Positions 23,167 to 30,800 of a stretch of 43,613 nt of DNA are shown here, piece by piece. Under the pieces are notes generated by a model. It made no database searches, was not told where the DNA came from, and was given only the letters and a program-made list of their open reading frames with translations. Source of the DNA: an uncultured Bacillota bacterium (GTDB lineage: Bacteria > Bacillota_I > Bacilli_A > Culicoidibacterales > ZOR0006); assembly GCA_945956935.1 (NCBI GenBank), contig CAMFJD010000013.1, positions 1-43,613 on the forward strand, read 5' to 3'. Numbering within the stretch: position 1 is the stretch's first letter; each line of letters opens with the position of its first letter. A program made the translations under genes and the position numbers.

Positions 23167-23255
23167 TATTTTTATAAAGGGGATAAAATTAGTAGAAGAA
23201 TTTAAAAAAAGAGCGTATAATGATAAAAAATACGATAAAGTGGGAGGACTTTGCT

Positions 23256-23876
23256 ATGGCAAATCTTTTTGGAAAATTAGCAGCAGATACATTAGGACTT
23301 TCAGATATTGGAACAATTATTTCACCACAAGATTTTGATAAAGTAGATGGTGATGATTACATTATGCATGAAGATGGTGAGAAAATATTTTTTGTCATTA
23401 AATCAAAGTCAGATGAGTATGTATTTACAAATTATGGATTACTTCATGTTGATGGGGCGACAGCTGTTAGTAAGAAACGTGTAGTGCGTCGGTATGATTT
23501 TTATACACATGCAGTATCACATGTCACGTTGGAGACAGCTGGAACAGTCGATTTAGACATCGAGATTAAATTCCATTTTGGCGAAGTGTCATTTAGTATT
23601 GATGTTGATAAGAAACAATTGGAACTGCTCAAAGATTTATATAAGACACTATTTGAAATTGGTTTGTTACAACAAAAAAATCAAACAGTTGTAAATGATG
23701 GTTTACTGAGTTTGAAAATGGCGAATGAAGCGTTAGGGCGTAATCATTTAGATGGAGAAGCATTAGATATTATCAAGTCAATAACTGATTATAATTTTAT
23801 GTGGACAAAACAACTACGAGCAACATATCATGTCAAAGACTATACAACTATCTATGAAAAATACTTAAATAACTAA
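23256..23876 (+). CDS. YvbH-like PH-domain protein
   Basis: A 206-residue cytoplasmic protein that resembles Bacillus YvbH. The N-terminal ~115 residues match the bacterial PH-like fold of that family, with the hallmark LGLSDIG, DYIMHEDGEKIFF and LETAGTVDLDIEIKF segments. The C-terminal part is helical. There is no signal or membrane segment. The start at 23256 follows GGGAGGA; an upstream in-frame ATG would include that site. A TATAAT (23216-23221) may be its -10, with a poor -35. It lies at the left edge of the stretch that separates thiN from rpmB. Its biochemical role is unknown for the whole family. Confidence 0.85.
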   Translation: MANLFGKLAADTLGLSDIGTIISPQDFDKVDGDDYIMHEDGEKIFFVIKSKSDEYVFTNYGLLHVDGATAVSKKRVVRRYDFYTHAVSHVTLETAGTVDLDIEIKFHFGEVSFSIDVDKKQLELLKDLYKTLFEIGLLQQKNQTVVNDGLLSLKMANEALGRNHLDGEALDIIKSITDYNFMWTKQLRATYHVKDYTTIYEKYLNN

Positions 23877-23885
23877 AAAAAAACT

Positions 23886-23924
23886 AGAAAACGCTTGCAA
23901 AGGGGGTCGCGTGTATAGTATATT
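23886..23924 (+). promoter_or_regulatory. Promoter with embedded cre site for the tandem pseudoknot RNA
   Basis: The -35 TTGCAA (23895-23900) and a -10 TATATT (23919-23924) are 18 bases apart. The -35 lies inside a cre site: minus-strand TTGCAAGCGTTTTCT (23886-23900) matches WTGNAANCGNWNNCW at all fixed positions. CcpA bound here would exclude RNA polymerase. The promoter begins ten bases after the YvbH-like gene, and transcription would start close to 23930. Confidence 0.75.
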
Positions 23925-23929
23925 ATAGA

Positions 23930-24268
23930 CAAGGCCAGAGCGAGTAAAAGATGTGCTCGCGTAGAGAAGTTGATACATCTCCTGAGGTTAGAGTGGATTC
24001 GAAGTGCGTCCATGTCAAAAAAATGTACTGTTCAAAGGTTATGAGCGGACTAATTGCTATTCGCGTAAACAAATGTAGCAATTGAGTAAGAGCGAAGTGT
24101 AGGAACTTCGTGATTGAAAATAAGTCCTACAGAGTAAAAGCGGAGAAGGGACAATGCTTCGCGTAAATAAAATAACAGTTCCATAGTGAGAGCGGAGATA
24201 GGAAACTTCGTGCAAAAAAAAATAAACGGCCTACTAGAGCATGTTTTGAAAAAAACATGCTCTTTTTA
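23930..24268 (+). ncRNA. Structured RNA of six tandem H-type pseudoknots
   Basis: No ribosome site or reading frame of note lies here. Six units of 47-53 bases follow each other. First stems (S1): GCGAG/CTCGC (23940, 23956), GTGGAT/GTCCAT (23993, 24008), GCGGA/TTCGC (24045, 24060), GCGAAG/CTTCGT (24092, 24106), GCGGAG/CTTCGC (24140, 24157), GCGGAG/CTTCGT (24192, 24206). Each S1 loop pairs with a site further on (S2): AGATGT/ACATCT (23949, 23975), AGTGC/GTACT (24003, 24025), AATTGCTA/TAGCAATT (24052, 24076), GTAGGA/TCCTAC (24099, 24125), GGGAC/GTTCC (24148, 24178), TAGG/CCTA (24199, 24230). The linker before each S2 partner is 11-18 bases and mostly A-rich, as in known pseudoknots. AGGCC (23932) and GGCCT (24228) could close the whole RNA. 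An intrinsic terminator ends it. I do not recognise the family. Confidence 0.85.
24236..24268 (+). terminator. Intrinsic terminator of the pseudoknot RNA
   Basis: AGAGCATGTTTT (24236-24247) and AAAACATGCTCT (24252-24263) form a 12-bp stem with a GAAA tetraloop, followed by TTTTATT. The EEP hydrolase ribosome site starts only about 15 bases beyond, so this terminator may also control that gene. Confidence 0.93.
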
Positions 24269-24298: not shown

Positions 24299-25066
24299 AT
24301 GAAAATAATGACTATGAATTTACACTGCTTACAAGAAGCAAATCCGAGAGCTTGTTTACAAACATTAGCAGAGACAATTATCAATGAAGGATATGATTTG
24401 ATTTTTTTACAAGAACTTGTTGAAGTAATAGCATTTGATCTAACAACAGAAATTCATGATACTGGTGCTTACTTAATTGCACAATTGAAACGAGAGAATT
24501 CAGCATATCAATTAGTAAAAAGTTATGCGCATGAGTCATGGGGGAATTGTCGTGAATATGTGGGAATTATCACTCGATTACCAATTATTCAGTCGCAGAC
24601 AGTTGTATTAAGTGAGCGAAGCGATCCAACTGATATCGATCGTCGTGTCGCACAATCAGTACAAATTGAAACAGATGGAAAAATTGTCTGTTGTTTAAGT
24701 ACACATATGAGTTGGCCTGAAAATAATCAGTCAACGAAATTTTTAGAACAACTTGACCAACTCAATCAATATGTGAAGACGTTGAATATGCCAATCATTC
24801 TTGGTGGTGACTTAAATATAACGCCAGATACAAAAGAATATCATGCACTCCTTGCGGCTGGATGGGTTGACGCATACTATACAATGAATCATCAACATGA
24901 TTGGACATGTATTGAATATGAAGGTGAAACGATCAGCTATCAACATATTGATTATATTTTGACGAATCGATCAGTGGTAACGACTGACGTATATCGAATA
25001 TTTACTACTCCAACACAAATGATTTCAGATCATGTAGGAGTAAGTGCTGAGTGTACTATTCTATAA
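24299..25066 (+). CDS. Endonuclease/exonuclease/phosphatase (EEP) family hydrolase
   Basis: A metal-dependent phosphodiesterase of the EEP fold (DNase I, sphingomyelinase and sugar-phosphatase relatives). Visible motifs are TMNLHCLQ at the N-terminus, FLQELVE with the metal-binding Glu, THMSWP, LGGDLNITP with the Asp/Asn pair, and the terminal SDHVG histidine. The product is 255 residues without signal peptide, so it is intracellular; substrate is unknown. The ATG at 24299 follows AAGGAGG. The space between the RNA terminator and the ribosome site is too short for an obvious separate promoter, so the gene may depend on readthrough from the pseudoknot RNA. Confidence 0.88.
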   Translation: MKIMTMNLHCLQEANPRACLQTLAETIINEGYDLIFLQELVEVIAFDLTTEIHDTGAYLIAQLKRENSAYQLVKSYAHESWGNCREYVGIITRLPIIQSQTVVLSERSDPTDIDRRVAQSVQIETDGKIVCCLSTHMSWPENNQSTKFLEQLDQLNQYVKTLNMPIILGGDLNITPDTKEYHALLAAGWVDAYYTMNHQHDWTCIEYEGETISYQHIDYILTNRSVVTTDVYRIFTTPTQMISDHVGVSAECTIL

Positions 25067-28796: not shown

Positions 28797-30800
28797 ATGA
28801 CAAACAAAACAAAAATTATTTTAGCAACAATTGCTACAACATCACTTTTTGGGCATAGTCTCATGATTGCAGCACAAGAAATTGTACAGGAATTTCCGCT
28901 AAAAGTGAATAAAATTTCTGGGTATGATACGGGGATTATTAACGCTTATGGAGGTGTAGCAGAAATTGTACAGTTTAACCCAGATAACAATAAATTCTAT
29001 CTAATTAATGGAACAACAAAAACAATTGAAATTGTTGATATGAGTCAAATAGGGGATGGAATAAATCAACCATTATTGAAAGAAAAAGATATTCATTTAG
29101 CAGAACTTGTTAATGACGAAACATTTACATTTGGAGATGTTACAAGTATTGATATTAATACGCAAGCAAAAGTTATGGTAATTGCTATACAAGCAGAAGA
29201 TTATAAGCAATCAGGAAAAGTAGCAGTACTTGACTATGATGGTAATTTGCTTGAAACGTTTACAGTTGGTGTACAACCAGATATGGTAAAAATGACTGAT
29301 GATGGTATGTATATTTTAACAGCTGATGAGGGGGAGCCTCGCCTTGGAATTGATGGTGATGATTGGGATCCAGAGGGTTCAGTCACAATTATTAATTACC
29401 AAACAAAACAGACACAAATTATAACTTTTGATGATGAAAACGTCATTGATAATGATGTGCATATCCGTAATGTAACCGGAGGTGCAAAAATGGATTTAGA
29501 ACCAGAGTATATCGCATTGTCAGCTGATGGATTAACAGCATATGTATCTTTACAAGAAAATAATGCTATTGCGACAATTGATATTCCAACTGGAAGTGTT
29601 GAACGTGTACAATCACTTGGAGTCAAAGATCATTCAATTGCAGGAAATGGATTAGATGCGGCACGGGATGGGGAAATCCTTATTGAAACATTACCGATTA
29701 AAGGTGTTTATATGCCTGATGCAATTACGAGTGTTGTCATCAATGGTAAGGAATATCTTTTAACAGCAAATGAAGGCGATGCGACTGAGTGGGGGAAAAA
29801 AGAAGCTGCCTTTACGAATGTAAGTAGTTTTAAAAAATATTTTGCAGATAAAGAATTAGAAGTGACAGATGAGACATTTGCTGGAATGAGTGCTGAAGAG
29901 GCAAAGTTAAAGTTAGTGGCGATGAAAGAAGCGGGTAAATATGATAAGCTTGAAGTACTAACAGATATGGGTGATGATGCAATCTATGTACTTGGTGGCC
30001 GTTCATTTGCTATTTGGGATGCTGATACAATGGAACTTGTTTACGATAGTGGATCACAATTTGAAGCGATTACTGCCGAATTGCTTCCTGAAGGTTTTAA
30101 TTGGTCAAATGATGATACTGAGTTGGATAAACGTAGCAGCAAAAAAGGACCGGAACCTGAGGGGATTGAGATTGGGATTGTAAATGATAAAATCTATGCC
30201 TTTATTGGACTTGAGCGCATTGGCGGTATTATGACATACGATATTACAAATCCTACCGATGCAAGTATCGCTAATTATATAAATACACGCGATTTTAGTG
30301 GAGCCATTGCAGGAGACGTATCACCTGAAGGGATTGAATTCGTTTCTGCAACGAATAGTCCAACGAATAAGCCACTTGTACTAGTTGGTAATGAAGTTAG
30401 TGGAACTGTGAGTATTTTAGAACTTGAAGTAGAAACTACAGATATAACAGAACAACCAGCTACACCTGGATTTGGTCCAGACGGAGATGTTACACCAGAA
30501 GTTGATTACGAAGTGAGTACAGAAAACAAACCAGCTACACCTGGATTTGGTCCAGACGGAGATGTTACACCAGAAGTTGATTACGAAGTGAGTACAGAAA
30601 ACAAACCAGCTACACCTGGATTTGGTCCAAATGGTGATAGTACACCACAATTAACAGAGAGGCCAAATTTTGAAGATGAGACAGCGCAGACATTACCCCA
30701 AACAGGTAGTTTTACACGAGAATTACTAAGTATTGGAGCAGTAATTACTGGTTTAGGTGGAATTTTGTTTGGTAAATTGAAAAGAGATAAGATACGATAA
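28797..30800 (+). CDS. LPXTG-anchored surface protein, choice-of-anchor I type
   Basis: A 667-residue cell-wall protein. A signal peptide (about residues 1-26) precedes a large domain typical of choice-of-anchor I proteins, which have a beta-propeller-like fold and were described as alkaline-phosphatase-like. Segments such as GVQPDMVKMTDDGMYILTAD, LTANEGDATEWG and SPEGIEF belong to it. Then come 25-residue repeats starting PATPGFGPDGD (two full and one partial), and the sortase signal LPQTG with a membrane helix and positive tail (KLKRDKIR). Start ATG at 28797 follows AGGGAG. PhoP-like repeats upstream would fit a phosphate-scavenging role. Enzyme activity is not established by the sequence. 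Confidence 0.9.
   Translation: MTNKTKIILATIATTSLFGHSLMIAAQEIVQEFPLKVNKISGYDTGIINAYGGVAEIVQFNPDNNKFYLINGTTKTIEIVDMSQIGDGINQPLLKEKDIHLAELVNDETFTFGDVTSIDINTQAKVMVIAIQAEDYKQSGKVAVLDYDGNLLETFTVGVQPDMVKMTDDGMYILTADEGEPRLGIDGDDWDPEGSVTIINYQTKQTQIITFDDENVIDNDVHIRNVTGGAKMDLEPEYIALSADGLTAYVSLQENNAIATIDIPTGSVERVQSLGVKDHSIAGNGLDAARDGEILIETLPIKGVYMPDAITSVVINGKEYLLTANEGDATEWGKKEAAFTNVSSFKKYFADKELEVTDETFAGMSAEEAKLKLVAMKEAGKYDKLEVLTDMGDDAIYVLGGRSFAIWDADTMELVYDSGSQFEAITAELLPEGFNWSNDDTELDKRSSKKGPEPEGIEIGIVNDKIYAFIGLERIGGIMTYDITNPTDASIANYINTRDFSGAIAGDVSPEGIEFVSATNSPTNKPLVLVGNEVSGTVSILELEVETTDITEQPATPGFGPDGDVTPEVDYEVSTENKPATPGFGPDGDVTPEVDYEVSTENKPATPGFGPNGDSTPQLTERPNFEDETAQTLPQTGSFTRELLSIGAVITGLGGILFGKLKRDKIR
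30456..30650 (+). repeat. 75-bp tandem repeats in the LPXTG gene
   Basis: Two 75-base units (30456-30530 and 30531-30605) read as identical, and a third partial unit starts at 30606 and diverges after about 30 bases. They encode the wall-spanning repeats PATPGFGPDGDVTPEVDYEV. Identity at third codon positions suggests recent duplication, so copy number may vary between strains. Confidence 0.92.

Follow-up and report, generated by a model that had tools for sequence, protein, structure and literature searches.

A conserved array of six hairpin units with unit-specific inner helices, predicted to form a pseudoknot chain, in a genus of Bacillota

What kind of RNA, if any, is encoded in the interval that separates a bacterial PH-domain gene from an Exo_endo_phos (EEP) gene on a contig of an uncultured Bacillota bacterium? 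Within the 43,613-nt stretch of DNA that was analysed (hereafter the window), positions 23930-24268 contain six similar units spaced 47-53 nt apart and starting at 23940, 23993, 24045, 24092, 24140 and 24192. Each unit has a 5-6-bp hairpin (S1), and the inner part of its loop has its complement 10-18 nt 3′ of the hairpin, giving a second potential helix (S2). The initial annotation had described the region as six tandem H-type pseudoknots of ~50 nt; each hairpin with its loop/partner pair was recovered where it had been placed.

The pairing strands are as follows. Unit 1 (23940..23980) combines S1 GCGAG 23940-44 / CTCGC 23956-60 with S2 AGATGT 23949-54 / ACATCT 23975-80, and unit 2 (23993..24029) combines S1 GTGGA 23993-97 / TCCAT 24009-13 with S2 AGTGCG 24003-08 / TGTACT 24024-29. 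For unit 3 (24045..24083) S1 is GCGGA 24045-49 / TTCGC 24060-64 and S2 is AATTGCTA 24052-59 / TAGCAATT 24076-83. Unit 4 (24092..24131) has S1 GCGAAG 24092-97 / CTTCGT 24106-11 and S2 TGTAGGA 24098-104 / TCCTACA 24125-31, followed by unit 5 (24140..24182) with S1 GCGGAG 24140-45 / CTTCGC 24157-62 and S2 GGGAC 24148-52 / GTTCC 24178-82. Unit 6 (24192..24233) has S1 GCGGAG 24192-97 / CTTCGT 24206-11 and a possible S2, TAGG 24199-202 / CCTA 24230-33. All six lie on the forward strand. S1 is conserved from unit to unit (consensus A-GCGRAG...CUUCGY-G), every unit has an A-rich third loop and the GUA step after S1 is usual; S2 is different in every unit.

The array is framed by signals expected of a transcription unit. 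Upstream on the forward strand lies a sigma-70-like promoter, TTGCAA-18 nt-TATATT (23895..23924; 9/12 match, ~1 expected by chance), and downstream an intrinsic terminator (24236..24268, forward strand) with a 12-bp stem (24236-24263), a 4-nt loop and a T run, of which 0.2 are expected by chance. The locus is apparently a free-standing RNA gene with a predicted transcript of ~335 nt, and it is present as a single copy in its genome. Overlapping the −35 element is a cre-like operator (23886..23900), whose minus-strand sequence TTGCAAGCGTTTTCT has 0 mismatches to the cre consensus, WTGNAANCGNWNNCW. This site suggests, at the level of sequence, that carbon supply may control expression of the RNA; we treat it as a lead only, because matches to the consensus are common by chance in the window, where they occur no more often than expected.

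A coding function for the region was considered and rejected. There is no forward-strand open reading frame across the array, and the short gaps that separate the two species compared below are scattered, many of them not multiples of three. A 14-codon frame in unit 3 (window 24035-24085, ATGAGC...TGA, preceded by a Shine-Dalgarno-like AAAGG) was also discarded, because its ATG is missing in the second species.

Within the window the repeated design scores well above shuffled sequence. A mechanical pseudoknot-chain score reached 164 for the region, compared with a mean of 35.8 and a maximum of 113 among 2000 dinucleotide shuffles. Scores of up to 139 occur in other 340-nt stretches of the window, so the score is not overwhelming by itself, and it was not taken as evidence of homology because a loose scan of GC-rich loci returned many false chains. 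S1 was also compared across the units: 98% of cells are paired, four of the six pairs show two-sided changes (including C-G to U-A in unit 2 relative to the other units), and the 10 two-sided changes were not equalled in any of 500 shuffles.

The evidence that settles the matter comes from comparison between species. A homologue was found in the sole other genome of the same family among those compared (G001), so that the comparative support comes from two species. It lies at G001:C25:34586-34929, is 72% identical over the aligned part (E 2.3e-33) and contains all six units. The promoter retains both hexamers at their 18-nt spacing (TTGCAT-18-TATATT), the spacer itself being just 44% identical; the cre-like sequence that overlaps the −35 element, GAAAACGCTTGCA, is identical in the two copies, and the G001 copy ends in an equivalent terminator. 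The promoter-units-terminator layout that the initial annotation had proposed to seek in related genomes is present in G001.

The S2 helices differ between the species by 10 double compensatory substitutions, two in unit 3, four in unit 4 and four in unit 5, with most of S2 changed in units 4 and 5. Matching the loops of units 3-5 with partners from the other species gives about −3 kcal/mol or weaker, against −6.3 to −10.5 kcal/mol for the native pairs. Elsewhere in the G001 copy, S1 of unit 1 is extended to 6 bp with S2 reading GATGTT/AACATC, two G-U pairs in S2 of unit 2 become A-U, and an A-U pair in S1 of unit 4 becomes G-C. The same S1/S2 topology is found in 12 of 12 units, six per species. 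The knots are kept in the sister species even though both pairing strands have changed, and therefore the structure is under selection; as judged from the two sequences, this applies to both S1 and S2 of units 3-5. The internal covariation on which the initial annotation had built its case, and which loss of complementarity in a homologue would have undermined, is accordingly borne out between species. Its view that units 2 and 6 are the weakest stands for unit 6, which is questionable, and not for unit 2, which is improved in G001.

Specificity of the pairing was assessed by matching loops to partners in all 720 permutations, and in both species the native arrangement had the lowest summed energy. 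A covariance model of the unit hairpin (R2), another check suggested by the initial annotation, was trained on ten units with the fifth unit of the window (W5) and of G001 (G5) held out. W5 was recovered at 24.7 bits; G5, which has a bulged stem, reached only 11.9 bits. Across the window, R2 matched all six units inside 282 nt, and the sole other notable match was weaker (17.6 bits). These results bear on the simplest alternative, that the complementarity arose by chance in an unconstrained intergenic stretch. The chains of up to 139 that the loose descriptor finds elsewhere in the window count in its favour; the double compensatory changes, the native matching being best in both species and the conserved promoter and terminator speak against it, and we consider it refuted by the G001 homologue, leaving it a vanishingly small probability.

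Do S1 and S2 form together? Covariation alone does not establish co-formation, and we infer it from the consistent, non-overlapping H-type geometry. Each unit might instead be bistable, folding as the S1 hairpin or the S2 hairpin but never both, with no pseudoknot at all. The covariation supports each helix separately and is compatible with such a switch, as are the nested minimum-energy folds, which form only S2 in the third unit of the window and, in most of the other units, only S1. For the window sequence the nested fold has −94.9 kcal/mol (z −5.0); the folds of the two species have the terminator and a helix joining the ends of the array in common and differ in the remainder. However, S1 and S2 never overlap, and first loops (L1) of 0-5 nt and third loops (L3) of 10-18 nt permit the two helices to coexist, fitting H-type geometry; L1 would be 0 in the fourth and sixth units of G001, where dropping one S2 pair restores it. 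Moreover, the topology is preserved in every unit, and A makes up 58% of the third loops compared with 37% overall. H-type pseudoknots typically have an A-rich third loop, and both this feature and the loop sizes agree with the initial annotation. We therefore regard bistable units as quite unlikely, given these points, and the pseudoknot structure as well supported, with both helices selected in units 3-5 and a reservation for unit 6, whose pseudoknot may be absent once the RNA is closed.

That reservation arises from the ends of the array. On the forward strand, AGGCC at 23932..23936 can pair with GGCCT at 24228..24232, just before the terminator, and both species have this AGGCC/GGCCU helix in their minimum-energy fold, with AGGCC identical in G001. 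Folding energies predict that it probably closes the chain. Its 3′ strand overlaps the CCUA partner of unit 6, making unit 6 doubtful as a pseudoknot, since the closing helix (duplex −10.0 kcal/mol) is favoured over unit 6 S2 (−4.0 kcal/mol). Unit 6 could simply be a hairpin, or else contribute an arm to a strand exchange. No difference between the window and G001 is seen in its S1, loop and partner or in the closing-helix strands, and covariation speaks neither for nor against either pairing. Complete conservation of the three strands (5′ end, loop 6 and 3′ site) fits a three-way constraint.

We compared the RNA with known families. No Rfam 15 family reached its gathering threshold, as the initial annotation had anticipated, and the weak matches lay mostly on the terminator or flanking sequence. 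One family of similar general appearance is tmRNA (RF00023), likewise free-standing, ~340 nt long, with several pseudoknots and paired ends. However, the array RNA lacks tRNA-like ends, a tag frame and an RF00023 match, no tRNA or tmRNA was found in the window, and each of the two genomes carries its own canonical tmRNA elsewhere (L237:1501-1850 and L236:1501-1850, tag GNYNTNLAAA), in which the unit model finds nothing. Identity with tmRNA was rejected, in agreement with the initial annotation. In the upstream pseudoknot domain of tobamoviruses, consecutive H-type pseudoknots are stacked in a row in the viral 3′UTR. The succession of pseudoknots is alike, but the viral domain is a 3′ element of an mRNA and not a free-standing bacterial gene; the comparison was one of architecture. 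CsrA-type sponges display GGA in simple hairpin loops, and like CsrB/RsmZ, repeated modules in one small RNA could bind many protein copies, a possible mode of action here. In contrast to these sponges, the loop sequences of the array are not conserved and most G001 loops lack GGA (CGATGATGTT, GCCGAAGTACA, CTGATCGTT, GGCAGATGG and TCTAAGCAAAG), AGGA being kept in unit 6 only, and a CsrA/RsmA sponge was rejected.

The nearest described design, not mentioned in the initial annotation, is that of the type III antitoxin RNAs (ToxI, CptI, TenpI, antiQ). Their genes consist of a promoter, pseudoknot repeats of 34-45 nt, a Rho-independent terminator and a toxin ORF (PMC5086642, PMC4627078); the CptI unit is 45 nt (PMC4627078). 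The array resembles them in having a promoter, tandem H-type pseudoknots of similar unit length in one transcript, supported by covariation with unit 6 doubtful, then a terminator and, ~30 nt on, an ORF (24299-25066). This layout would be accounted for by an antitoxin whose toxin, encoded in trans or by the downstream gene, both processes it and is inhibited by it. However, each monomer of a type III array repeats the same sequence (PMC5086642), whereas the S2 strands of the array differ in every unit and a 5′/3′ closing helix is predicted. In addition, the protein encoded after the terminator is of the Exo_endo_phos family and not a ToxN/CptN/TenpN-like ribonuclease, and its gene does not adjoin the RNA in G001. 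The ToxN_toxin profile (PF13958) had no match in either genome, nor in 14 control genomes. Membership of type III is not supported, and we judge a type III-like antitoxin distinctly unlikely.

The genomic neighbourhood bears on whether the RNA acts in cis. The window has an ordinary chromosomal order: PASTA kinase, rsgA, rpe, thiN, the PH-domain gene (bPH_1/YvbH-like, 23220-23876), the RNA, the EEP gene (24299-25066), GNAT, galK and galT. Near galK/galT, at 28797-30800, the window also encodes a protein of 667 aa that carries a choice-of-anchor I domain (PF22494). In G001 the RNA is followed by a repeat-containing stretch, rpmB on the opposite strand, asp23 and yloV. The repeats in that stretch (L003:1050-1480, between the RNA and rpmB) are three direct copies of TTTTGTGCGAGCGATGA..., spaced at ~145 nt; two copies have a length of 67 nt and are 82% alike, and nothing similar occurs in the window. 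Because the order after the RNA differs (EEP-GNAT-galK-galT versus rpmB-asp23-yloV), the RNA sits at a rearrangement breakpoint. On the other side, the PH-gene orthologue of G001 (L101:15-719) ends 14 nt from the end of its contig and the RNA begins at the edge of a different contig, which suggests that the PH gene-RNA order is the same.

The RNA might be read as a cis-acting leader of the EEP gene, attenuator- or riboswitch-like, with terminator read-through as its output. The terminator ends ~31 nt before the EEP start codon, a ribosome-binding site follows shortly after it, no clear separate promoter was found between the terminator and the start, and single H-type pseudoknots are known to serve as riboswitches (PMC11625349). 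The same RNA in G001, on contig C25, is not followed by an EEP gene, the relative of that gene (36% identical) lying on contig C2, and this favours action in trans. S2 is the usual binding pocket; here it is the least conserved part of the RNA. We consider a cis-acting leader very unlikely.

Action in trans could take the form of base pairing, with loops or linkers pairing with mRNAs while the hairpins and S2 control access to the seed. The free-standing small-RNA anatomy, the conserved cre-like site and the conservation of linker segments that follow units 1 and 2 are consistent with a regulatory RNA of this kind. The loops of units 3-5 have, however, changed between sister species while still pairing with their own partners, the opposite of a conserved seed, and base-pairing regulation appears unlikely.

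To define the distribution of the array, 395 class and 392 phylum genomes were searched, overlapping sets with ~520 distinct genomes. A full-length model (R1) recovered, among the 395 class genomes, the two congeners only, together with one chance match at E 0.066 that lacked any unit. R2 gave single chance matches and no second array in the class and phylum sets, and none of the 14 top-scoring class matches from beyond the genus had a second unit at the locus. Loci with shared synteny in 14 other class genomes contained no array. In G003, from the other family of the order, the same locus reads thiN, one further gene, rpmB and asp23, without an array. A chain of four pseudoknots at L111 lies inside a coding gene and was rejected. 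A DNA search of plasmids and phages returned no related array, and unit and two-unit patterns gave scattered single matches but no arrays in viral contigs. With the queries used, the range is one genus so far among the ~520 phylum genomes and the plasmid, phage and viral sets, and within the scope of these searches, repeated but mutually orthogonal pseudoknots joined in a chain are not known from any described bacterial RNA.

What might such an RNA do? We tentatively favour, at somewhat under an even chance, a lineage-specific noncoding RNA of ~335 nt that would stand alone and act in trans, presenting a repeated, locally folded module to a partner that is most probably a protein. At least five units would each fold as an H-type pseudoknot with a conserved S1, a unit-unique S2 and an A-rich third loop beside S1, hanging on short linkers in a chain closed by AGGCC/GGCCU. 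S1, the GUA step that follows it and the A-rich loop would together form the surface that recurs along the chain and faces one partner, for which an RNA-binding protein is the likeliest candidate, and the RNA would be a multivalent scaffold or sponge displaying six copies of one module. The unit-specific S2 helices would be address codes, stopping near-identical repeats from pairing out of register. While the gene anatomy, the conservation in a second species and the selection on both helices of units 3-5 can be read directly from the comparison, we infer the function, that is the partner, the scaffold or sponge role and the regulation, and the unit surface might be conserved simply because the fold requires it.

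A bolder extension, possible but doubtful in our estimate, is that the RNA represents a new bacterial class, a closed pseudoknot chain in which S1 faces the partner, S2 gives each unit its address, and an exchange among the 5′ end, loop 6 and the 3′ site would open and close the chain. Under this exchange the three strands would be fully conserved because any change needs three matching mutations.

For the genus, the array is an orphan RNA, possibly with a site for carbon control, its limited range (one genus so far) lowering its reach. If confirmed, it would offer structural work a set of twelve related pseudoknots made by nature, six per species, and would illustrate how a repeat RNA avoids misfolding, by conserving the module and diversifying the inner helix.
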